In this document: positions 11,550-64,000 of the stretch, one piece after another
Position numbering within the stretch: position 1 is the first letter of the stretch
How the letters are laid out: each line of letters starts with the position of its first letter
Assembly: GCA_021234155.1 (NCBI GenBank)
Contig: JAJEKV010000055.1
Location: 1,667,090-1,731,089 of the forward strand
DNA: 64,000 bases
Direction of reading: 5' to 3'
DNA from: Isoetes taiwanensis
Taxonomy: Eukaryota > Streptophyta > Lycopodiopsida > Isoetales > Isoetaceae
Notes under the pieces: generated by a model
Seen by the model: only the letters and a program-made list of their open reading frames with translations
Database searches by the model: none
What the model was told of the DNA's origin: nothing
Made by a program: the position numbers and the translations under genes

Positions 11550-12490
11550 TTTGGCTAGATATCATGGTGTTTCGTAGCCAAGCAAGTGGTGTTTCCGTCG
11601 ATATGGTGTTTCGCTAGAGCCATGGTGTGTTTCTCGCCTTCTGTAGATAAGACCTTGCTTCAGCTTCTAATTCCTGTAGATAAGCACTGCGGAATACAAA
11701 TTTGTAACCCCTAATTGGAATACAATATCTAAAAACATTGAGACCTCTAATTGGAATAATAATATCTAAAACATTGAATTGCACTTTCAACATATGAGTG
11801 CAACTCATTGTGAGTAGAAATCTTAATAGTGCAACCTTATAATCGGTGTTTCTAGCCAAGGACATGGTGTGTCCGCCAGAGGCATGGTGTGTTTCCGCCA
11901 TAAGCATGGTGTTTTCCGCCGTAGGCATGTGGTGTTTCGCCATAGCTATAGTATTTCCGCCAAGGAGGTGGTGTTTCCGCCATAAGCATGGTGTTTCCGC
12001 CGTGCGTCTTGATGTTTTCGACCATAAGCATGGTGTTTCTAGCCGCAGGCATATCCGCCATAAGCATGGTAAGCCGCCAAGGAATTGGTGTCTCGCCATA
12101 ATGGTCGGTGTTTCGCCATAAGCGGTTTTTCTTGGCCAAGTGAGTGGTGTTTCTCGCCGTGTCTTGGTGTTTCTAGCCATAAGTATGGTGTTTCTCGGCC
12201 GTGGCATGGTGTTTCCGGCCATCGCGATGGTGTTTCCGCCAAGGAGTGCGGTGTTTCCGCCATAAATATGGTGCTTCGCCGAGGCATAGTGTTTCCGCCA
12301 TAAGCATGGTGTTTCCGCCGTGAGGCATGGTGTTTCCCGACCAAGTGAGGGTGTTTCGCCAAGGAGATGTGTTGCCAAACTTGCGTTTCCGGGCCATAAG
12401 CATGGTGTTTCCGCCGTAGGCATGGTGTTTCCGACATGCAGGTTTCCACACGCGATGGTGTTTCGACATGTGAGTGGTGTTTCGTTGCCG
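11550..12490 (+). repeat. minisatellite, unit about 20 bp (GGTGTTTCCGCCATAAGCAT)
   Basis: Roughly 35 diverged units of GGTGTTTCCGCCATAAGCAT and close variants are arranged head to tail. The block has a non-repeat interruption at about 11635-11845. The core GGTGTTTC is well kept, while the second half of the unit varies (CCGCCGTAGGCAT, CTCGGCCGTGGCAT). Because the unit lacks stops on the minus strand, several long overlapping minus-strand frames result; the longest spans 11614-12711. They consist of the repeated HAYGGNTM / ETPCLW pattern and are not genes. The same core occurs at 1-40 and at 45570-45610. Confidence 0.93.
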
Positions 12491-43329: not shown

Positions 43330-45545
43330 TTAGAATTAATTAATATCACGCCCACTTTGGACCTTGAAAGGTCAAAGAGTGAACAAGCATATTGTTCACA
43401 ATTTCAATACTAGTGAACGGTGTGCTTCTATAGAGACCAAGCATCATAGGATCATTATCTAATAAAGATGAAAATTTAGCAGCTTGTATACATAATCTGG
43501 CCCAGATCTCTCATAAGCTGGGCAGTGCAAAAATATATGAGTCTCATCCTCGACCATGCTCAACTTGCATACTTCACAAAATCTTTCTTCTTTTGGAGTC
43601 TTCGACCATCTGCCTGTTTCCACATGTAGCCTTGTTCTATACCTTGCAATGTACTTCTTCAGGGAACTTGGTATTTGAGCTTTCAGATAGTTTCGTTCTG
43701 AGTACACCAGCAAAGGTTTTACCTCTGATGCATATGTAATCATGTGTGAGCCTCTGTTTGCACAAAGTTTCTCTACAACTCGTATCTGCACCAAATCTTG
43801 GGCACCAAGAGTTGTGTCCGGTAACTGATGCATAGATATCCCCTGTTTTTCAGCCCATATAGTCACCTCCCGATACAGCCTGACGATGATGATTGTGCCA
43901 GCGCCATCTTAGGCAAACGCCCATCTGGCTGTTTGTGAAGCCTTACAACAAAGTTCAGTGTCTAGTATAGTGCCTCGGCCTCAAGCGAGAGCATGCCGAA
44001 TACTGCCAGCAGTATCGCATATGGGACCTGTGGTTTAATCCCTAATTCCTCCCGGAGAAATATCTTCAGCACTGATTCAATTTGGGTCCATTGCTGTGTT
44101 GAAATGCATGGCCCCCATATAGGCGATCCATAGAAGACTACGGTCTGTACCGAGGCCTTGAATAAGATTTTTTTGAGCCCCCAGTCTATGAGAGATGCCT
44201 TGTGATACTTGGTTAGCATACAGTACAAAGCCATCTTGCCTCCTTCCATCCGTTTCCTGATACAATCCTTCCATCTATATTTTGCTAAAAATTCTAGCCC
44301 CAGGTATTTGTAGCTGTCAACAATCTCTAGAGTGTCACCCTTATATATGAATATAGGTCGGCTTACCGTTCCTAGGATCATTGCTTTTGACTTGGTTAAA
44401 TTGACCTTCATGTGTCTCACATCACAAAATATAGCCAGACTAACAAGGTGGGATTGCACAGGTCTGTTTGCTACCAAAACCACATCATCAGCGTACAATA
44501 GGAGTTGGACAAGGAAATTACCCAATCAAGAGCCTGCTAGACCTCTTGTTCTTAACCATTCTTCAAGCTCATCTATGTACAGACCGAACAGGGTTGGGGA
44601 CAGTGGGCATCCCTGCCGGACACCTATTATGCTGCGAATTTCTCTATCAAAATCTACAGACAATTTTGCCATCACTTCTGAGTATAGCTGGGATATGGCT
44701 CCTCCGATTGCCTTTGGAACTTCATTCTGTTCCATTCGAGTCCACAAGTCTTTTTGAGGAAGTATATCAAATGCTTTTGTGAAATCAATGAATGCTAGAT
44801 ATAAAGCTTGCCTAGGTTTTTCTTGCTTGTTCGATCAACACCCTCAAATTAAGAGCATGATCAAGAGCACACTGCTGTTTTCTGAACCCTGCTTGGCAGC
44901 GAGATCTTTTCTCACTCTCATCGGCCCAGAAACTAAGCTTCCTCTCCAGCAAACTTCCTAGCAACTTAGAGAACATGCTGCCTATCAAAATGGTCCTGAA
45001 TTACGCACGTTGGTTTTGTCCCCAGCCTTGTGTCTCAGAAAAACTCTATTTTCCTTCCAATCTCGTGGCAGGCCTTGCCTAACAGCTTGATTCATCAATC
45101 TTCGTCTCTGCACCATTTCAATAATACGATGCTCAAACCTTGTAGATCTGCTACCTTCCCGTTCGTCATGCCTTTGAGAATCTCTTTTACATCGTTTGAT
45201 GTGAACATATCTTCCTCAATGACCTATTGTTGCATAGCTTCAACATCATGGGCATAAATTTCCTTGGCCATGAGGAGCAGCTCCATGGGTTCTAGATCTC
45301 TCTGGGCTATTTTGGTTGATAGTTGTTTCCAAAATGGTTTTGGATTCTCACAAAACTATTGCTGCAGGGATGCTTGCCTTTTCCGAGAATACCTTCTCTT
45401 CTTTCCTCTTATGAGAGCTTTGTACCCATTTTAGTTTACATATGCAGTAAGTCTTCTATGCCTGAAATTTTCAGATTCCAGCTCTGGCTTCTAGCTCATT
45501 TTTTTCAGAAGATATTCTATCTTGATGTAAAATCATTTGCTCTTT
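43330..45545 (-). mobile_element. LINE (non-LTR retrotransposon), ORF2 region, broken
   Basis: On the minus strand, in order: the linker before RT (FTSNDVKEILKGMTNGKVAD, 45.2-45.1 kb), RT motifs including the AFID-FTKAFD region (about 44.78 kb), RSIIGVRQGCPLSPTLFGLY (44.63 kb), the catalytic LLLYADDVVLVAN (44.49 kb) and the thumb part KYLGLEFLAKYRWKDCI. The C-terminus has GRWSKTPKEERFCEVCKLSM and HIFLHCPAY, a CCHC-like finger. The YADD box is intact. At least four frame changes and several stops break ORF2, and the endonuclease domain is missing, so the copy is 5'-truncated near 45.54 kb. It belongs to the same family as the LINE at 61.7-64 kb (shared FGLYIDELE, TP-x-x-R-x-C-x-x-C and VEDE-x-H). 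The family resembles the L1/jockey groups; exact clade not assigned. Confidence 0.93.
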
Positions 45546-53316: not shown

Positions 53317-53859
53317 TTATGTGCTGCAGCAGTGTGGAACTGGATCAAGGATAGAATCAATTATCCTTAGTTAGTCTACGCTTTGTGAAGGATTGTTAGC
53401 CAGACTACTTTGAGACCTGTGCGAGCATTAATGAAGTTGGTTGGATTATTATTCTCATAGTCTGTCAATATTCGTTTGCTTCCTTTTAGTTTTTCTTTTG
53501 TTTCTTTAGAGCAATATCTGATTGCTTAAAGCTCAAGCACATGTATTACTTGAATCATTTTTCTTGTAATGACTGCTGCAGGAAGCACAACGTTTAAATT
53601 TATGCTTCCTAAGACAAAAAATGCAGTCACATGATTGGATGCCACATATATAGAGATCACATGTGCATGAGATTAGGCCAGGCCTGGACGCATGAACTGT
53701 GCATTAGTCTGCAAGGGAAAACCACATTACTCTTCTACTTTGGAGGTTCTGATTGCAAGCAAGCATATTCTTAACTATTAACTATTGTTATTAGCTCATA
53801 ATTAAATTCTCTAGAACCTTGACAGAAAGCTATTATGCACAACCAGCAAAAAACTCACC
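53317..53859 (+). repeat. 543-bp direct repeat, left copy
   Basis: Nearly identical to 59517-60059 (I count about 16 differences, roughly 97 percent identity). Both end at AAAAACTCACC. The two copies flank 5.66 kb that includes the gene-capturing element. They lack clear TG...CA LTR ends and no primer-binding site follows, so a segmental duplication is more likely than a pair of LTRs. Confidence 0.95.
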
Positions 53860-54450
53860 TTATCGGACTCTTGTATGTAAAGGGAGAGTTGTTTTTTTTT
53901 GCATATTTTTACTAGAAGAGTACTGATAACTAGTTATCAGTACTGGAGGAGTGATGACAATTAATTATCAAGATTACTCCTCGATCGATAACTAATTATC
54001 GATCTTGGGTTTACAAGTCGGTTTCTGTGTCCGCCGCGCATCTTTGTGTTTCTACAGATTTGGGGCCTTATTCTGGCCACAGGCCCCGTTCCTCCTGTTC
54101 CTTCCCTATTCCGCAATGCAACAAAAGAGGAAAGTGCAAAAAACAGAGCGGATCTTTGTGAGGAAAGATAAAAAAACAGAGCAAAAAATAGATGCAAAAA
54201 AACAGAGCAAAAAACAGATCAATCTGCAAAAGCATTCCGCTGCTCCTTCATCTCTACTTCATCTCTAGACGACTCTGCCGGGACGATCGGTATCGCCATC
54301 GCCATTGCTTTCGAGGCCATCTCATTGCTCGACCGCCATAGCCAGCCGCTTTGTCAGTCCTCCAAAACCTCGAAACCTAAGTAAGTGAAAAATGGCAAAT
54401 GTCGACCAGAAAGGAAAAAAAAAATGACAAATTTTAACGCAGCCCGATAA
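53860..54450. other. spacer between left 543-bp repeat and the captured-gene element
   Basis: It contains a nested palindromic stretch (GATAACTAGTTATC at 53927-53940 and CGATCGATAACTAATTATCG at 53982-54003). An A-rich segment with repeated AAAACAGAGCAAAAAA units follows at 54130-54220. A GC-rich part at 54250-54375 could be a dead first exon. Confidence 0.5.
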
Positions 54451-54460
54451 GGCGGTTATC
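54451..54460 (+). repeat. target-site duplication, left (GGCGGTTATC)
   Basis: GGCGGTTATC here is repeated exactly at 59505-59514, just outside the inverted ends of the element between them. Nine to ten bases is the duplication length known for Mutator-like elements. Confidence 0.75.
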
Positions 54461-54498
54461 CGATGGTTTTTTCTACGCCCGATTTGGGTTGGGCTTCA

Positions 54499-54940
54499 AT
54501 GGAAACCTCCCCAACTTTCCCTGGAAACCTCCCCAACTTTCCTGGGAAACCTCCTCAACTTTCCCTGGAAACCTCCCCATTTTCTCGGAAACCTCCCCCT
54601 GGAAACCTCCCCAACTTTCTCCATATTAGAAAAAACGGGGGTTTCTATCAAGCTCTCCCACCTTTCAGGAAACCTCCCGGCTTTCTTGGATGACCCGGGA
54701 GGTTTCCAATTAAGAAAAACAGGAGGGTTTCCCGCGGAAAAAATGTGGGGAGGTTTCCATAAAAGAAAAAAAGAAAAGGCTCTTTAAATTTGCACGAAGA
54801 CCAAGACTAACCCCGTGCATCTCGGTCCTCGTGCATTGCAGTCCATCGGTGGTTGCCAACATTAATGACTATTTTTTATTTTTTTAAATATTTTATGGAA
54901 ACCTCCCCAACTTTCCAAAGAAACTAGGGGAGGTTTCCAC
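54499..54940. repeat. subterminal repeat array (GGAAACCTCCCCAACTTTCC)
   Basis: About ten copies of GGAAACCTCCCC, half followed by AACTTTCC, occur in both orientations. The same unit occurs about five times in the right end (59100-59470). Such subterminal repeats are often transposase-binding sites in DNA transposons. Confidence 0.9.
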
Positions 54941-55930
54941 AAAATGTCTATAAAATTTCAAAGTGAGCTATTTCTTGAAGCAAATCGTCTGTTTGAGTTC
55001 TTCTTTCATCAACGAATTCATCCAAGCTTTTTCTTTTTAACATTTACGTCAAAATTTACACTAGTTTATGAATGTTTCATAAAAATAGTTCCATTTAAGA
55101 CGTAAACTCTCTCATATATCCATCCTAGTTGTATACTATGCCACTGCAACCCTTAACATATTGACTTAGTTAAATCAAACCTTGCTATTTTTCCTTTATA
55201 ATTTTCATATCTAGCCTTATTGATGTCATTTTCTATCTCATCATTTATCCTTATATCTTGTTCATATCTAGTCTATCTCATTGTTCCTGTCAGATTTAAA
55301 CATCTTAGGCATCTTACTTTAAAGCATTCAGAATCTCATTTTATAAATACAGAGATCAATTACAACTTGCATATCTCAAAATCTTAGAATATGCTTTTAT
55401 TTCCAATGATATCCATATTCAAGTTCTACAAACTTTGTATCTTATAATTACAATAGACCAGCCATCCATAAAAGCCGTTGTACATGAGCTGGCTTTGCAT
55501 CTTGTACATGCAAACTAAGGCTTTGCTTGCAACTTCCGATCAGAATAGGTAGGCTGTAGCATGCCAGAAATATTTAATCTACAAATTTCATTTACAGACA
55601 AACATTTAGGCCTGATATTTGGCATAAACTTTAAGCCATTCAGTCTCAGATATACTAAGAACAGCGACCTAGGATCTCAAAATGAAAATGCAAAAGCCAT
55701 TGACAATAGAAAAACCCCAAATAGCATCATGAAAAACCCAAATAAGATCACTCTAGCGAATTGTAATTCGTGCCCATTGATAATAGAAAAACTCCATGAG
55801 CTGCAATTATGCAGTTTCATACCAGAAAACAATGGTTTACCTTAAGATACATCTTATTTTACTGTTAGTACAAGTTCAACTGCCATTAAAGCACCTGAAT
55901 CATGTGTTTGAACATATGGGCAACATAAAC

Positions 55931-56300
55931 TCAAGCACTCAATACCAGATTTGACAGAGACCAGTCATCTGCAGCAACATGTGCAGTAATGCTTTCTTCG
56001 ATACGGTTCAAATTCGCATTGAGAGCTTGCTCCGCAGAGGGCTTAAATAGTTTGGCAAGATATGGAGATAATGATAATCCCTATTTTTCCAACAAGGAAC
56101 AATGACCAAACGCAATTTGCACACATTCAGCAGCAACCCTTAATCCTCCAGCTGCAGCAGCAGATGATAGAACATGCTTTTCTAGAAATGCCATAAACTC
56201 TTCTAACACATGGAACGCCCACAATAGCAGCTCTGACCCATAACCTTTGTTTTCACCAAACACAATCTTTTGCTGCTTGTGCAGTGGCAAGTTTTCAAAT
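55931..56300 (-). pseudogene. EXO84 (exocyst subunit) C-terminal exon, captured
   Basis: The minus strand reads SELLLWAFHVLEEFMAFLEK, HVLSSAAAAGGLRVAAECVQ, then IAFGHCSLLEK. After one TAG stop (56081-56083, where plant homologues have Gln) it continues in the same frame as GLSLSPYLAKLFKPSAEQAL, NANLNRIEESITAHVAADDW to a natural stop at 55931. This is the conserved C-terminus of plant EXO84B/C, a subunit of the exocyst that tethers secretory vesicles to the plasma membrane. The single stop and otherwise good sequence suggest recent death. No other EXO84 exon is seen nearby; different gene pieces lie upstream. So this is a captured fragment in the 54.46-59.50 kb element rather than the gene itself. 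Confidence 0.87.
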
Positions 56301-56428
56301 CCAATAGATCTTATTGTAGATCTAGAAATCTAAGAAGAATAGGCACCATTTGACTAAAGGAGATTAATCATAATGTCTGCTAGAATTATGAAGATTACAA
56401 ATAGATGCAACAAAGAGAAGAGAATTAC

Positions 56429-56760
56429 CTAAGCTGACTTTTTCTCTTCAATAGGATCTTTAAGCCTTCTAGCCAGAGGAAGTGCCTTCTCAAATTCATC
56501 AAAAGCCGCCTTGGTTTTTTCTCATGTAGAAACCTCTTTCCTGCTTTAAGATAATTAACCATTTCCACTTTCATTGGATCACTTTGGATTTGATCAAAGA
56601 CCAAAACCGATGAATGTGAGGCGTCACGTCAAGGCATATAACCTTTGGTATTTGCCTTCTCATCTTGGCAAAGACTTGGCAAAGCTGTGCATTTATATTC
56701 TCAACCTCAACATTTCTTTGTCTCGCTACCATTCCTAGGAAACAAAAGAAAAACATTAGA
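56429..56760 (-). pseudogene. TPR-type exon fragment
   Basis: On the minus strand a piece reads NYLKAGKRFLHEK. After a one-base shift in an A run (about 56520) it continues as AAFDEFEKALPLARRLKDPI and EEKKSA before donor GTAATT at 56428. The spacing (GK-x-FL-x-E...A-x-x-x-FEKALPLA) is a tetratricopeptide helix pair. Upstream in the same piece is NVEVENINAQLCQVFAKMRR. TPR repeats bind protein partners; the parent gene is not identified. It is unrelated to EXO84, which lies 130 bases further on. Confidence 0.55.
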
Positions 56761-56916
56761 AACTTCTAAGCACAATGTTGTCATACAGATTTCATTTTGA
56801 TGGTTTGAGTAATGTCATTGTATGTTAATTTCATAAACTCAAGATGAAGTGTGATTTTAGGAAGCATAATTTCGTACTGAGAGTAGGAGACTGGAAAGAA
56901 AGCAAAATAGATCACT

Positions 56917-57120
56917 TCACCTCCCATCTGCAGCCCCTCGATAACATAGCGCTACCGCTATATGTGCAATTACCACCAAGGTGTTGATATCCTGCCCAGC
57001 AAAACTAGTACACTCACTTAATTCTGCCAATGCGGCACCAGAGCTATAGGCAGCTAGCATAAGAAGAGGAATCATGCTTGTCTTCACAATATTCTGCGCC
57101 ATGGTTTGCTGCAGGTGCAC
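56917..57120 (-). pseudogene. unidentified exon-like fragment
   Basis: Minus-strand frame MAQNIVKTSMIPLLMLAAYS, then SGAALAELSECTSFAGQDIN and TLVVIAHIAVALCYRGAADG, ending near a possible donor. It is helical and Ala-rich. It is probably from the same parent gene as the exons at 57.55-57.96 kb, since it is on the same strand and in order. No family recognised. Confidence 0.4.
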
Positions 57121-57553
57121 AAAATATAAGTGCAGCTATAAACTTGTTGTTCTACAAACCTAATTCTATGCCATCATAAACCTTATAATGTAGGTCGAAA
57201 AATTCATCTCACCAGTATGGGAAGAACTAGGATGTTGATTAAAACAGACACCCAAGCGGACTTTATTTGCACCATATTCCAAAATGCAATAAACTGGGTT
57301 TATTCCATATCGAGCACGAGCCATCCTTTAGCACGAGAACCCTAGTAAGTCTGGTACCGGACTTGTAAAGAGATTGATGCGAGAATGGAGAACGGATCAC
57401 TACCTCCATAGCCAGGACAACTTATTATAGGATAACGAATCGAATGGTAAATTGGATCATTTCAATAGTGAGATTTTCAGGACGTGCTCTGGCAGCTAAG
57501 CCTCGGGACAGAATAGCAAAACTAAGGAAAAACAAGAAGTAAAAAATGAACAC

Positions 57554-57956
57554 CTGTGCCATGTCTTGTCACCATCGCCAGATGCTCCATTTCCAAGCTG
57601 AAGCAAGATACGAATAATAGCTGCACATCTTACGCACCTTTGCGGCCGCCATAACTGATTCCTGCATTGCATGATCAAACAAAAGTGGGGATTCAAGAAG
57701 AATAGAGCAAGTGATAAGGACATTCATATTATTACCTTGAATGCCGGAAATAAGCTCCAAAGACGGACGGAATAACTGGATTCTGAGACAGAGATTTTGG
57801 AGTACGCTGCATCCCAGCTTGAAGATCCAACAGCTTCTGGCTATGACGAAGGCCATGACCGCCATATCCACGAGCAAAAATGAGCGCCAAAATATTCTGA
57901 GCGATGGCCATAGACATTAAATTTGGGTTATTATGAAAAACTGCTGTCGTAAACAA
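57554..57956 (-). pseudogene. two phase-compatible exons of an unidentified gene
   Basis: Exon pieces 57956-57736 and 57661-57554 are joined by a 74-bp intron with GT and AG ends (CAAG|GTAATA...AATGCAG|GAATCA) and keep phase. The first includes NNPNLMSMAIAQNILALIFA and GGHGLRHSQKLLDLQAGMQR; the second includes CAAIIRILLQLGNGASGDGD and ends at a GTGTTC donor. Intact splice sites and phase imply a real gene part copied with its introns. I do not recognise the family. Confidence 0.5.
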
Positions 57957-58499
57957 CGGGGAGGGCTTTTTTCCTCCTGGATTCCTGTTTTTGTTTCGTC
58001 CGTGGAAACTTTTGTTGTTGGCGGGGCTTAAGCCGCGCCGCCACTATTGTTTACATTCAGAAAATTTCACTATTGTTTACAATCCAAAAATTTCATTACA
58101 ATCCAAAATTCAATTACAATTCGAAACGGATTTACTCCTAGTTTCTGCAATTACAACACACGCAGCAGATGAAGATCCATTACAAGACCTGCGTTGCATC
58201 TAACCTCCAAACCATCTCGCAAAACGGATTTCCGTGCAAAACTGAACCAAAAGCGAGAGGATTTTGCATTCCACAGAGCCTCGGAACATCTGCGGTGTTG
58301 AATTCAAAGAGGTTTCAACCAGGTAGCCTTGATATCACGTGTCACAATTTCCAGGTCTTAACACAAATGGAATATCTGTGCTCCTGGAGCTATAAACTCC
58401 CCCCATATCCATCCCCGTGCTACAGAGCTTATCCTCATTCTCAAGGGAACTGTTGAGGCTGGAACAACAAAAACACAATCCAGAACCTGCTTTCCTCCA

Positions 58500-58755
58500 C
58501 CATACTCAAGAACTCAAGAACTCGCCAGAAGACTCAAGAACTCCCAAGAACTCGTCCCAAGAACTCCAAAACTCGCCAGAACTCGCCAGAAAGTCGCTAG
58601 AACTTCGCCCGAACTCCTCGGAACTCCTCGAACGCCCGAGAACTCGCCGAGAACTACTTCAAATCCAGAAAAACTTGAATCTAACGACGATGCGCCACTG
58701 TACAACTCGCCAGAACTCAAAACAACTCGCCAGAACTCAAAAACTCCAAGAAAGC
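58500..58755 (+). repeat. minisatellite (GAACTCGCCAGAACTC)
   Basis: Variants of AGAACTCGCCAGAACTC are repeated with irregular length through about 250 bp in the right half of the gene-capturing element. Confidence 0.9.
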
Positions 58756-58759
58756 TTCA

Positions 58760-59100
58760 AGAAAGCTCCAAATGCAGAAAAATCGGCATCAAAATGAAGC
58801 TAAGGGGATGGCGCCACCGCCAAACTACACGGCAGGCCACCACAAAGAAATACCCAAAAAAGCGACTCCGGCTGCGGAGTTCATTATCGCCAAAGCTTAC
58901 GCTCAAAAGAAACGAGGGCCAATTCATCCAAAAATCCACGTCGGCGACACGCGTCCGCCACCTCGGAAAAAGCCCTCCCGGTTGTTTTACGTAGCGAACC
59001 GCATGCGTGTTGGAGTTTCCGTGGCGGAAACTTTTGGGGCGCGACCACCGCGTCAGCGGCTCGGCGGCGCTAATGAAAAGCGGCCCCTTTGGATTCATAC
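58760..59100 (+). other. GC-rich coding-like stretch, unidentified
   Basis: An open frame through 58772-59173 has a basic, proline-rich composition (MAPPPNYTAGHHKEIPKKAT, FIIAKAYAQKKRGPIHPKIH). It may be another captured piece. No family recognised. Confidence 0.25.
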
Positions 59101-59504
59101 GGAAACTCCTCCCCATGGCGGTTTCCTATTACGTAAATATTTTTGGGATTTTATGGAAATCTCCCCAGGTTAGCAAGATTGGAAACCTCCCCAGCTTTAT
59201 GCCCTGTTCACATGCATAAAAATAAAAAAACGCCGGCTGCAAAGCGGCGTGACATCCTAAGCAAAATGCAAATTTCATAGCGGTCTTTGCAAATTTTTTG
59301 CCGTTTCGCGTACACCCATCAGCGAAACTGCAGCAGCTAGAATCTGCTGCACCGCTGGTCACGCCCACCTCCATCGCTGCTGCTATTTCAGAAGCTCATG
59401 TGAATCTTCCATTAGCCGAAAGCTGGGGAGGTTTCCAAGAAAGAAAGTTTGGGAGGTTTCCATTCTTGGGACCTTAACCCAATTTGGGCGTATATAATTT
59501 GAGC

Positions 59505-59514
59505 GGCGGTTATC
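59505..59514 (+). repeat. target-site duplication, right (GGCGGTTATC)
   Basis: Exact copy of 54451-54460, directly outside the right inverted end. Only two bases separate it from the start of the right 543-bp repeat. Confidence 0.75.
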
Positions 59515-59516
59515 GG

Positions 59517-60059
59517 TTATGTCCTGCTGCAGTGTGGAACTGGATCAAGGATAGAATCAATTATCCTTAGTTAGTCTACGCTTTGTGAAGGATTGTTAGC
59601 CAGACTACTTTGAGACCTGTGCGAGCATTAATGAAGTTGGTTGGATTATTATTCTCATAGTCTGTTAATATTCGTTTGCTTCCTTTCAGTTTTACTTTTG
59701 TTTCTTTAGAGCAATATCTGATTGCTTAAAGCTCAAGCACATGTATTACTTGAATCATTTTTCTTATAATGACTGCTGTAGGAAGCACAACATTTAAATT
59801 TATGCTTCCTAAGACAAAAAACGCAGTCACATGATTGAATGCCATATATATAGAGATTCACATGTGCTTGAGATTAGGCCAGGCCTGGACGCATGAACTG
59901 TCCATAAGTCTGCAAGGGAAAACCACATTACTCTTCTACTTTGGAGGTTCTGATTGCAAGCAAGCATATTCTTAACTATTAACTATTGTTATTAGCTCAT
60001 AATTAAATTCCCTAGAACCTTGACAGAAAGCTATTATGCACAACCAGCAAAAAACTCAC
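59517..60059 (+). repeat. 543-bp direct repeat, right copy
   Basis: Partner of 53317-53859; see there. Downstream sequence (ATGACTTACTCTACTTC...) differs from that after the left copy, so the repeat boundary at AAAAACTCACC is sharp. Confidence 0.95.
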
Positions 60060-60537
60060 CATGACTTACTCTACTTCTTTGTAGGTTAAAGCTTTTCTTG
60101 CCAACTGTGCAACTATTTAATCTTTTTTTAAGGGGCTTTAATCTTCAATATTTTGCTGAATGTAAAAGCATCACAAATAAGGGCATATAATGGCATAGGT
60201 CTATTCTTTGGTACGCATCACATACAAGGGCATAGATCTAATACCACATATAAGGGCATAGATCTATTCTTTGATGATTCCATTGAAGCTATAGAGTGGG
60301 TATATCATTAACTATGTATTTATGTGGCTGTGATTGCATTGTTTTCTTGCCTCAATATATCATGTTGATTTTATAGAAAATTGGGCGCACTTGATTTTGT
60401 GTCTTTTGGTCGCATTAGTTGTTTCTCCATGGATCTTTGACATTCGTGTCTGAAACCAATCCTTCGTTCCTATAACAACAAACAACTATCTATCTATTTT
60501 TAAGATTGTATATGTGTAGATAATACAAAATATCCAT

Positions 60538-61194: not shown

Positions 61195-61560
61195 TTAACC
61201 ATTTACATGTTCCGATGTTAACCCAGCAACGCTGGGCACCACCTTATGCCCAGCCTTGCAAAGAGATATAGACTTTGACTATAGTTATAGCCTTCCCTCA
61301 AAACATGTTCAGATTAACACTTCACCCACTCATACTTGCTACGAACAAGCGCCACTCAAACCTCAAAAAGATACAGATGCAACACTATCTAACATGAAGG
61401 AGCTTAGGTTTCCTTTAAAACATTGTTAAAGCTTGGAAAAGTTTTTGTTAAATTAAAAAGTTACAAAAGTTGGACTATTACTGCACGCTTTTCTCATTGC
61501 GGCAAAAACATTTACATGTCGAACTTATGCCCAGCAACGTTGGGCACCATTACTAGTAAG
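61195..61560 (+). repeat. repeated hairpin CCCAGCAACGCTGGGCACCA
   Basis: ACATTTACATGT...CCCAGCAACG(C/T)TGGGCACCA occurs at 61200-61245 and again at 61507-61552 in the same orientation, about 300 bp apart. The core can form a short stem (CCCAGC/GCTGGG). The pair may mark the ends of a small element; TIRs were not found. Confidence 0.7.
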
Positions 61561-61745
61561 TAAATATGTATCATGTATCAAACCCTAGATTGGAGGGACG
61601 GGATTGGCCATCCTATTGAGAGGCCGAGATTTAATTTATTAGAGTGTCATCATGATTCACTTGCTTCAGTCCCACGGTCAAAAAGTTTTGAAAGGGCAAA
61701 AGGGAAAGGAGGAAAAGGGAAAAAAGGAAAGCCAAAAAGGGAAAA

Positions 61746-64000
61746 GGGAAGGAAGGAAGGAAGGAAGGAAGGAAGGAAGGTACTTTTATCGTCCACGGAG
61801 ACCAATCGGTCTATAGGACCCAATACAAAAAAACGAAGCCCGGATTATCGCCGGATTAAAAACCCTCCCCGAAGGGTTTTCGAGGAAAACCGTGGCGTGC
61901 AATCAATCACGCTGACAAACCATAAGGCAACATATACAATGCGAAACACCCAAATATATATACAAATATGCACCACACCAGTGAGTGCCCAATCAACGAA
62001 AGCGGCCCGGTGGGCAAAGGTGACCTCGCAGTCCAAAGACTTCGAATGTAATGACCCTGTGGCACGCATCGAGGGTGTGTTCATCAGCCAGATGTAAGGG
62101 CAAGTCCGCCGTGCATTTCAAGGGAGCGATATCCGCCTTGGATGTGATCAACGCCGGGCAACTCGAAAGTGTGAGACTCATCCTCAATGGCACCCGCTTG
62201 ACAAAGATCGGCCAGAGCCCTGGCCCCGGCGGGGCTCCCAATCCACCGCCTGCCTCGATCGAAGATGGTGGGCACCTCGTGCGAATGGAGGCAATGAGTC
62301 CGCGCTTTTCGGGGCACCGAACGCAGTAGAGCTGTGGCCCCTGCTAACACGGGTTGATTCAAGCCCCTTGTAATGGGCCGCTTTGACCTCCTTCTAGAGC
62401 CGCCGGGTCCCGTGAGCTTGCCAAGGAAACAAGCGCCTAGGGTACTCCCGCAAAACGATCGTCACTGTGGTCCACTCACGCGCATCTATGCTCCCCGCGA
62501 CGCTCCATCCGGCGAACCACCGATGTCTCTTACCCCTCCAACAGTTCCTAAGCCGCCGCGGACCCATTGCCACAAGTAAGCCCGCGCTGGAGCCGAAAGC
62601 ATCACCCATAGTAACTACTTTTCAAAATAGACGATGTGTCTATCATACGCTGCCACCGGCTGCAAGAATCCAGTTTCTGCAGCGAACCGATAGGGGATCA
62701 AGGTTTCACCCTGTGCGGTGGCCAAAATGCCTTCGGCTGCTCCAAGTCATTCCGGTGTCGCCATAGAGACGACCGGGCCCCAAACCTCGACCCCGCATGT
62801 ATGACCAGTTTCGACCCGGTTCGAACAGATGTGACCGATGGCCCCAATCATAGAGCTCGCCGGATCGTTGTTCTCGCATGGCATAAAGCGCTTCTGCTTT
62901 GTCACCCGCAAGCGGATAGACGCCTCCCGCCAGAGCGAGGAGGGGAACTCCACCCCTAGGTACTTGTAGGTGGGCGCGACGCCCACAAAGCTGCCCCCGA
63001 TATGTGAGAGTGGGAGGCATGGGGTGACGCCAAGAGGATATGAGAACCACCCGGTCTTGGCCAAGATTCACGCCAATGTCTCGTAGCCCCACAAAATGTG
63101 TCTAGGGCATCCAAGTGAGACCCATAGCTTCGGGGTGTGGGCCAAAGAGCCAACATCGTCGCAGATAGATGAGCCGGGCGGATGACCCGGTGCAAAGTCG
63201 TATGCCATCCCCCATGCTCCGAGAAGCCGTGGCTCTAATCGATCAATGTAGAGGCCAAAAAGTGTTGGCGAGGGGGCAACCCCCGACCCTCGATACTATC
63301 GGTGAATGCTTGGCCTGGCCGGCTGCATCCCGCCAAAACAACTCTCATACAACTCAGATATGGCATTCTCGCACCGGCAATGGAGCCCCGATTGACGCAG
63401 CCTAGCCCACAGCTTTTCTCGGGAACCAGATCAAAAGCCTTCGCTAAGTCCACAAAGCAACAATACAAGTCCCCGATGATTCCGGCCGTCTTCAATCGCC
63501 CGCAGTGTAAAGATATGGTCAATCGTTGAGTGGCGGGGTCTAAAGCTCCGCCAGGTGAGGGCCCGCATCATGTGGCCTCTGCCAGCGTGTCAACCGCCGC
63601 TCGAGAATGCTAGCCAACAGTTTGGCAAATCTTGAATCCGACCATGATCGTCCGTTAGTTGGTCGGACGGGTGGGTCGCCTGCCTTGTGAATGGGAACGA
63701 CCACGCTTGTAGTCCATTGTCGGGGAGACCTTCCCAATGCTCTATTGAATAGGGTAGTGAGGACCTAGCACAAGCGGCTGCCCTGCCCATTTGAGTAACT
63801 CGGCCTGCATACCATCGAGGTCAGCTGCCTTCCCATTAGCCAGCCGTTGCAGGCCCTCCTCAACATCCTCCTCCACGAGAACCAATGGGGGGCCATCCTG
63901 TGGGGGTATGGGCGTATGCGTCCCTGGCGGGTCATAGAGCCGCCGCAAAAAATCTGCTCCCACCGCCGGGTGTGATGTCCCCTGTAGGCTGGGCTGGCCT
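61746..64000 (-). mobile_element. LINE, same family as 43-45 kb, runs off the right edge
   Basis: GC-rich. On the minus strand, from the right edge: pre-RT linker EDVEEGLQRLANGKAADLDG (63.86 kb), LYCCFVDLAKAFDLVP (63.44 kb), SPTLFGLYIDRLEPRL (63.23 kb), thumb KYLGVEFPSSLWREASIRLR (62.95 kb) and the C-terminal finger region GRRWIGSPAGAR...AIEDESHTFELPGVDHIQGG (62.25 kb). The YADD box is not readable. Many frame changes break the ORF. The 3' UTR ends in a tract seen as (GGAA)n on the plus strand at 61746-61780, i.e. a (TTCC)n tail. The 5' part lies outside the window. Confidence 0.92.

Follow-up and report, generated by a model that had tools for sequence, protein, structure and literature searches.

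A probable Pack-MULE family carrying captured host-gene fragments in the lycophyte Isoetes taiwanensis

Introduction

The locus raises the question of how pieces of more than one host gene came to lie together at positions 54461 to 59505 of the window, by which is meant the whole analysed stretch of 64,000 nucleotides of Isoetes taiwanensis DNA. A sequence-only reading by a model had taken this segment for a transduplicating Mutator-like element (MULE), and that reading was supported by other copies, by paralogous empty sites and by donor genes elsewhere in the genome. The segment was interpreted, at a probability of about 0.92, as a non-autonomous MULE of the Pack-MULE kind that would be mobilised in trans and whose composite interior has multiplied. 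Rice Pack-MULEs (Jiang et al. 2004) are described, in the accessible parts of PMC8903248 and PMC13317346, as transposase-less MULE ends around pieces of host genes. The genome searched comprised 1,658,258,908 bases in 1110 contigs; handles beginning with C denote contigs and those beginning with L denote loci.

Element borders, target duplication and empty sites

The features that define the element and its insertion site were as follows.

54461 to 59505, no strand assigned: whole element; left border from eight other copies, right border from the copies on C959 and C932 and the table of duplications
54452 to 54460, plus strand: left target duplication GCGGTTATC, present once in each of four paralogous empty sites, two of which differ from it by one base
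59506 to 59514, plus strand: right target duplication GCGGTTATC, from the comparison of flanks among copies
54250 to 54460, plus strand: end of an older repeat that served as target, whose paralogues act as empty sites

The element measured 5045 bp, or approximately 3.65 kb after subtraction of both nested insertions. On the left, eight other copies (L002 to L008 and L047) opened with CGATGG, at the base equivalent to 54461. The right terminus common to the copies was GGGCGTATATAATTTGAGCG, with the final bases GAGCG ending at 59505, and because the duplicated target begins after the final G in the C959 and C932 copies, the element was taken to end there. Of the borders first proposed, 54461 and 59504, the left one was retained and the right one was moved by one base. 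The 10-mer GGCGGTTATC was found twice in the window (54451-54460 and 59505-59514), against a mean of 0.07 in shuffled sequence and two copies in none of 100 shuffles. Since the G at 59505 belongs to the element, the target duplication is 9 bp; the 9-10 bp duplication proposed earlier was real, and its longer length was discarded.

Each of the eight copies in which both canonical ends and both flanks were read had a 9-bp duplication, in agreement with the duplications of 8-11 bp (mostly 9 bp) that mark MULEs. The flanking 9-mers matched at nine positions in the window, C959, C932, C1087 and C1007 copies and at eight in the C1089, C1096 and C1100 copies, those of C1087 and C1100 being matched at an offset of one base. 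None of the 56 control pairs of flanks taken from different copies reached eight matching positions. These duplications bear on the alternative that a Helitron-like element captured the genes. Helitrons also take up gene pieces with introns; they insert between A and T and are not known to make a target duplication or to have inverted ends. As MULE-type transposase parts are also linked to the ends of the present family, a Helitron was considered hardly credible.

All four examined paralogues of the older repeat were uninterrupted, with one target copy each, and read (G/A)ATAAGGCGG(T/C)TATCGG; in the window the same sequence was split by the element, with 9 bp repeated at the right. Two of the four, on C1103 and C1032, were nearly identical to each other. 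The search for an empty site that the sequence-only reading had suggested was thus answered by paralogous target repeats. A direct empty site was not found, as none of the 40 listed matches spanned both window flanks at full length; in five of them the match reached 15 bases beyond the junction.

Window positions 53317-53859 and 59517-60060 were also found to form a direct repeat of 544 bp with 97% identity, which encloses approximately 0.6 kb of older repeat together with the element; a partial further copy (96%) was located at C1040:1013355.

Terminal regions and the family across the genome

Two regions of the element were common to the family.

54461 to 55035, plus strand: left terminal and subterminal region with a 22-bp GGAAACCTCCCCAACTTTCC array, from genome matches
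59415 to 59505, plus strand: right terminal region ending GGGCGTATATAATTTGAGCG, from copy comparison

The inverted ends were imperfect, 54474-54541 pairing with 59492-59418 at 78.7% over 75 columns, and the earlier claim of inverted ends held over these columns. Terminal inverted repeats are a MULE feature, although non-TIR MULEs (without terminal inverted repeats) lack them. The tandem unit of 22 bp occupied 54500-54598. The subterminal GGAAACCTCCCC arrays described earlier as inversely oriented were real and the outermost ones were mutually inverted, yet both orientations occurred.

A query of 440 bases from the left end found its full length, at 80-100%, in 31 of 40 scored places, one of them being the window itself. 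Patterns made from the ends, with up to two mismatches, were found genome-wide at 256 left and 221 right places, and the reversed control patterns at none. Pairing was based on 100 listed places per end plus nine further left ends (one a duplicate), giving 108 left ends, from which 46 left-right pairs of 0.2 to 28.6 kb were formed; 14 of them measured between 3.1 and 3.6 kb. Pairs below 0.3 kb or above approximately 13 kb were possibly wrong pairings, and two right ends were used twice.

Common to the copies were approximately 0.6 kb of left-end and 0.1 kb of right-end sequence. The interiors between these ends were exchanged and mostly not shared, which was the outcome expected of the alignment of other copies proposed beforehand. 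The interior comparison covered 16 sequences from 15 copies (L002 is part of the C959 copy), with only the first 1.9-3.7 kb of L003 to L008 and L047. Beyond the end regions, L004, L007, L008 and the C1087 copy had no stretch longer than 80 bp in common with the other compared copies; much of the length of the C1087 copy came from an insertion that appeared, by eye, to be of Copia type. Three groups shared interior sequence: the window copy with L040, L047 and L006; L005 with L006 and L047; and the C1089, C1096 and C1007 copies with L077 and L003.

Gene fragments in the window copy

The interior of the window copy, apart from later insertions, consisted of the following stretches.

55036 to 55691, no strand assigned: stretch of unknown origin, which the window copy has in common with L040 and L041, its sisters
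55794 to 56289, minus strand: captured EXO84 fragment that covers the C-terminal portion of Exo84_C and is interrupted by a premature stop, from alignment to L054 and Pfam
56295 to 57512, minus strand: captured fragment of a TPR-protein gene with putative introns and several small indels, from alignment to L045
57508 to 57953, minus strand: third captured segment, gene not identified, with 46 genome matches among those listed

In the window, the EXO84 fragment matched PF16528 at an E value of 0.0017, with 18.7 bits against a curated cut-off of 32. Its identity, as first suggested, was established by base-by-base alignment to a donor, L054 on contig C941, which carried Exo84_C (PF16528) at 1.6e-18 over profile positions 5-204 of 205; there were 22 mismatches in 496 ungapped columns and 59 gap positions. 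The premature stop was a change of CAG to TAG, and because the EXO84 frame of L040 terminated at the same residue, the break is probably older than the split between these two copies.

After a filler of approximately 5 bp came the TPR fragment, for which two donors matching over 1.2 kb were found, L045 (contig C1106) and L046 (contig C1080). The alignment to L045 spanned 1243 columns at 89.5% identity, with 92 mismatches and 39 gap positions, and the TPR-type fragment named earlier was confirmed through this donor, in which PF13424 scored 6.2e-11. The alignment to L045 and L046 continued through the stretches read as introns, the donors being unannotated; so read, capture is at the DNA level with putative introns included, as in Pack-MULEs. 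Frame-shifting indels were present in the captured piece, one of which, of 7 bp, was also present in L040.

Pieces of at least two host genes, as originally claimed, were thus confirmed by donors elsewhere in the genome. No element end was found in approximately 1.5 kb examined on either side of the donor matches at L054, L045 and L046, so that for EXO84 and TPR the parental genes that were to be located proved unlinked to element ends, as is characteristic of Pack-MULEs. Several matches of the third segment outside known ends looked exon-like, with shorter gaps. Part of the stretch of unknown origin (55123-55462) was also found at C1007:8987989 (83%). Rfam and tRNA scans of the window gave no match.

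Cargo of other copies and multiplication of the composite

Other copies carried other genes. The C959 copy contained a short-chain dehydrogenase fragment (PF00106, 4.3e-11), and the C468 copy (L005) contained HSP20 at 1.8e-27 in an open frame covering profile positions 2-101 of 102. In the C919 copy (L006) a shorter HSP20 piece was found (2.2e-9) and, deeper inside, 136 columns in common with L040 right beside the EXO84 stretch; this combination would fit stepwise building of composites. The family has thus captured at least four recognisable host genes, EXO84, TPR, HSP20 and short-chain dehydrogenase. No Pfam match was obtained in the part of the interior frames searched of L004, L007 and L008. 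The minus frames of the C1007 copy gave weak matches to PPR_1 (0.017) and VARLMGL (0.00078), both under their cut-offs.

The window composite was present elsewhere. L040, of 3617 bp, was 92.6% alike to the window copy over 3574 columns, and the EXO84 stretch was found at at least six other loci (L042, L043, L044, L047, L050 and L052); the composite therefore multiplied after capture. The flanks of L040 and L041 were common on both sides, so these two represent one insertion that was later duplicated. Such segmental duplicates are what would be expected if the gene pieces had been copied by ordinary duplication and were flanked by unrelated repeats. Against this, the same composite was found with family ends at other sites, that on C932 with its own 9-bp duplication, and paralogous empty sites exist, which made segmental duplication extremely improbable as the origin of the composite.

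Multiplication of the composite, together with the HSP20 frame of the C468 copy that is open over nearly the whole domain, might also suggest that selection acts on the captured pieces and that they give rise to a functional chimeric protein or a regulatory RNA. The EXO84 stop of the window copy with the L040 frame ending at the same residue, and the TPR indels with the 7-bp one shared by L040, argue against it, and this was considered unlikely. In the window copy the captured EXO84 and TPR fragments are broken, with no sign of a protein from them.

Two further arrangements were observed. A cluster of partial EXO84-bearing copies occupied 37 kb at C1026:2063814-2100521, up to 99% alike to the window over 270 bp, and in L042 (C1078:15492698-15497466) the right part lay in the opposite orientation to the left part and the cargo.

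Link to a transposase

The absence of a visible transposase, remarked on in the sequence-only reading, was borne out. The window element had no match to three transposase parts (the only hit in the window was of 13 residues at 43791, E 0.6), and Pfam recognised no transposase family in its plus or minus frames. A Pack-MULE likewise has no transposase of its own. Pfam also recognised none in the plus frames of the C1096 copy or the minus frames of the C1007 copy.

Three copies with family ends (C1089, C1096 and L077) encoded protein parts without a significant Pfam match. A 108-residue N-terminal stretch of this family protein had at least 150 genome matches, of which 56 were compared (the 43 best and 13 picked by eye). 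Among the 100 perfect left ends listed, 17 had one of these 56 downstream on the same strand (16 at 1.0-1.7 kb and one at 2.8 kb). By eye, the C/H spacing in the next part of the protein is like that of the zinc fingers of MULE proteins. A relative of this part, 38% alike, was found at L078 (C1101:908025), with an RNase H-like core 0.6 kb beyond it. The core matched PF21056 at 2.3e-6, over the cut-off, and PF10551 at 0.0028, and as a query it had at least 150 genome matches. In 15 of the 56 compared N-terminal matches the core followed at 0.9-1.2 kb. On C985 a perfect left end was followed by the N-terminal part and then the core, at 1.0 and 2.1 kb. A comparison of 88 PF21056 places with 93 zinc-finger places gave one same-strand neighbour, on C1101, and one on the opposite strand.

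The ends are thus linked to parts of a transposase, and relatives of these parts possess a core of MULE type. The earlier assignment to MULEs gained support from these parts behind other left ends and from the core behind the parts in related loci; that the family encodes a MULE-type transposase was established by linkage rather than from one whole copy. MULE transposases with WRKY-GCM1/FLYWCH-type zinc fingers and a ZSWIM1/3-like RNase H core are known. The family protein resembled these in its C/H zinc-finger-like spacing (by eye) and in the PF21056 core of its relatives, and differed from them in an extra N-terminal region without a Pfam match.

Weight of the evidence for a MULE

Several observations weigh against the Pack-MULE interpretation. 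At the ends, the outermost 13 or so bases were unpaired except for the leading CG. A duplication was not clearly recognisable in L040 and L041, where at best 6 and 7 of 9 positions agreed, and approximately 13 outer left-end bases were missing from both, the left end being degraded. The third captured segment was without an identified donor. With the older repeat ending at this point, the empty-site paralogues matched the window for only 2-3 bases beyond the duplication. As for the transposase, none of the copies read combined both ends with a complete transposase; the chain on C985 consisted of coordinates only, with stop codons within its matches; the core was read in a single relative, L078, which had a zinc-finger part 38% alike to that of the family and a PF10551 match under the cut-off (18.5 of 27.6 bits); and 7 of the 15 N-terminal places that have a core behind them were more distant relatives, 64-70% alike. 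In the PF10551 search, scoring covered 150 of 1020 candidates, and 97 of these 150 were compared with 47 ends; none of the 97 lay within 50 kb of an end, the nearest being at 57 kb.

Taken by itself, the distance of the PF10551 places would speak against a MULE; this objection lost its force with the diverged core that was reached through the protein of the family itself.

These points touch on the alternative that the element belongs to another or new DNA-transposon superfamily and is MULE-like only in the length of its duplication. That would agree with imperfect inverted ends starting CG, with tested protein parts that had no significant Pfam match (one was, by eye, like an integrase-type zinc-binding domain) and with compared PF10551 places that did not adjoin the ends. 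However, the 15 places with the family protein or its relatives continued into a core that matched PF21056 and weakly PF10551, and MULEs are described, in the accessible part of PMC6446971, with duplications of 8-11 bp and sometimes without inverted repeats. Another superfamily was accordingly regarded as decidedly unlikely, and a MULE of the Pack-MULE kind as the reading that the evidence favours.

By this interpretation, a MULE transposase from other family members would recognise the ends of the window copy in trans, excise the element and insert it, duplicating 9 bp. Earlier, an EXO84 exon, a TPR gene including its introns and a third gene would have been copied as DNA and brought together between the two ends, and the composite would then have multiplied by transposition; two further insertions landed later in the window copy. 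The gene pieces may have been captured via template switching or gap repair.

Nested insertions and other features of the window

The two later insertions in the window copy were the following.

57954 to 59131, no strand assigned: nested insertion with CGTAAA on both sides, repeated in the genome, recognised from sister copies without it
59200 to 59414 (approximate), no strand assigned: nested miniature insertion of approximately 215 bp flanked by TTA, with at least 30 relatives 75-94% alike

L040, L041, L044, L058 and L075 continued across the first site without the insertion, L044 and L075 with approximately 15 other bases. A cupin (germin-like) fragment was read on the plus strand near 58371-58478 (Cupin_1, PF00190, 4.8e-6). 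The earlier statement that all gene pieces were on the minus strand was therefore correct for the EXO84, TPR and third segments and not for this fragment. Relatives of the insertion were found in L048 (83%) and L049 (79%), and it may represent another gene-capturing family, nested within the first. At the second site L044, L058 and L075 continued without the insertion, and L040 and L041 had a short deletion. This miniature repeat resembles a PIF/Harbinger-type miniature inverted-repeat transposable element. As two insertions have landed in it, the window copy is not new.

Elsewhere in the window, a degenerate tandem array with a unit of approximately 21 bp (GGTGTTTCCGCCATAGGCAT) was present at 11845-12437. 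The GC content reached 58% at 62001-64000, against 36-51% in the other 2-kb steps, and 61500-64000 was overlapped by only two frames of at least 120 amino acids.

Comparison with known systems and significance

Pack-MULEs are a known kind of element; the I. taiwanensis family is new and its host unexpected. As far as the accessible parts of PMC8903248 and PMC13317346 describe them, rice Pack-MULEs share with it the several pieces of host genes, the multiplied composites and the mostly broken fragments, and they differ from it in that here the host is a lycophyte, the ends are only partly inverted copies and GGAAACCTCCCC arrays lie beneath them. Pack-CACTA and other Pack-TYPE elements also hold gene fragments between transposon ends, but with duplications of 5 bp (CACTA) or 8 bp (hAT) rather than 9 bp, according to the portion of PMC8903248 available. 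Animal Pack-TIRs, in the available portion of PMC8277862, are likewise a case of capture by DNA transposons outside flowering plants, and template switching during replication is proposed there for their capture; unlike the present family, they have animal hosts and involve other elements. No account of a Pack-MULE in a lycophyte, moss, fern or other seed-free plant was found in the titles and abstract openings of the literature searched, in which subscription journals were thinly covered.

Most descriptions of Pack-MULEs come from flowering plants, the grasses among them. A lycophyte family with several different captures would show that capture by MULEs is not peculiar to flowering plants, and it would provide a second, distant system for asking how capture works and whether the captured pieces become genes. 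The annotation of this genome is also concerned, as the exon-like pieces in hundreds of elements could raise its gene counts artificially. It is tentatively suggested, at rather less than even odds, that this one MULE family acts as a genome-wide exon-shuffling system of the lycophyte, with repeated modular capture (HSP20, EXO84, TPR, short-chain dehydrogenase and others) and some composites expressed. If that were true, gene capture by MULEs would extend outside seed plants and could be tested as an old property of plant MULEs.

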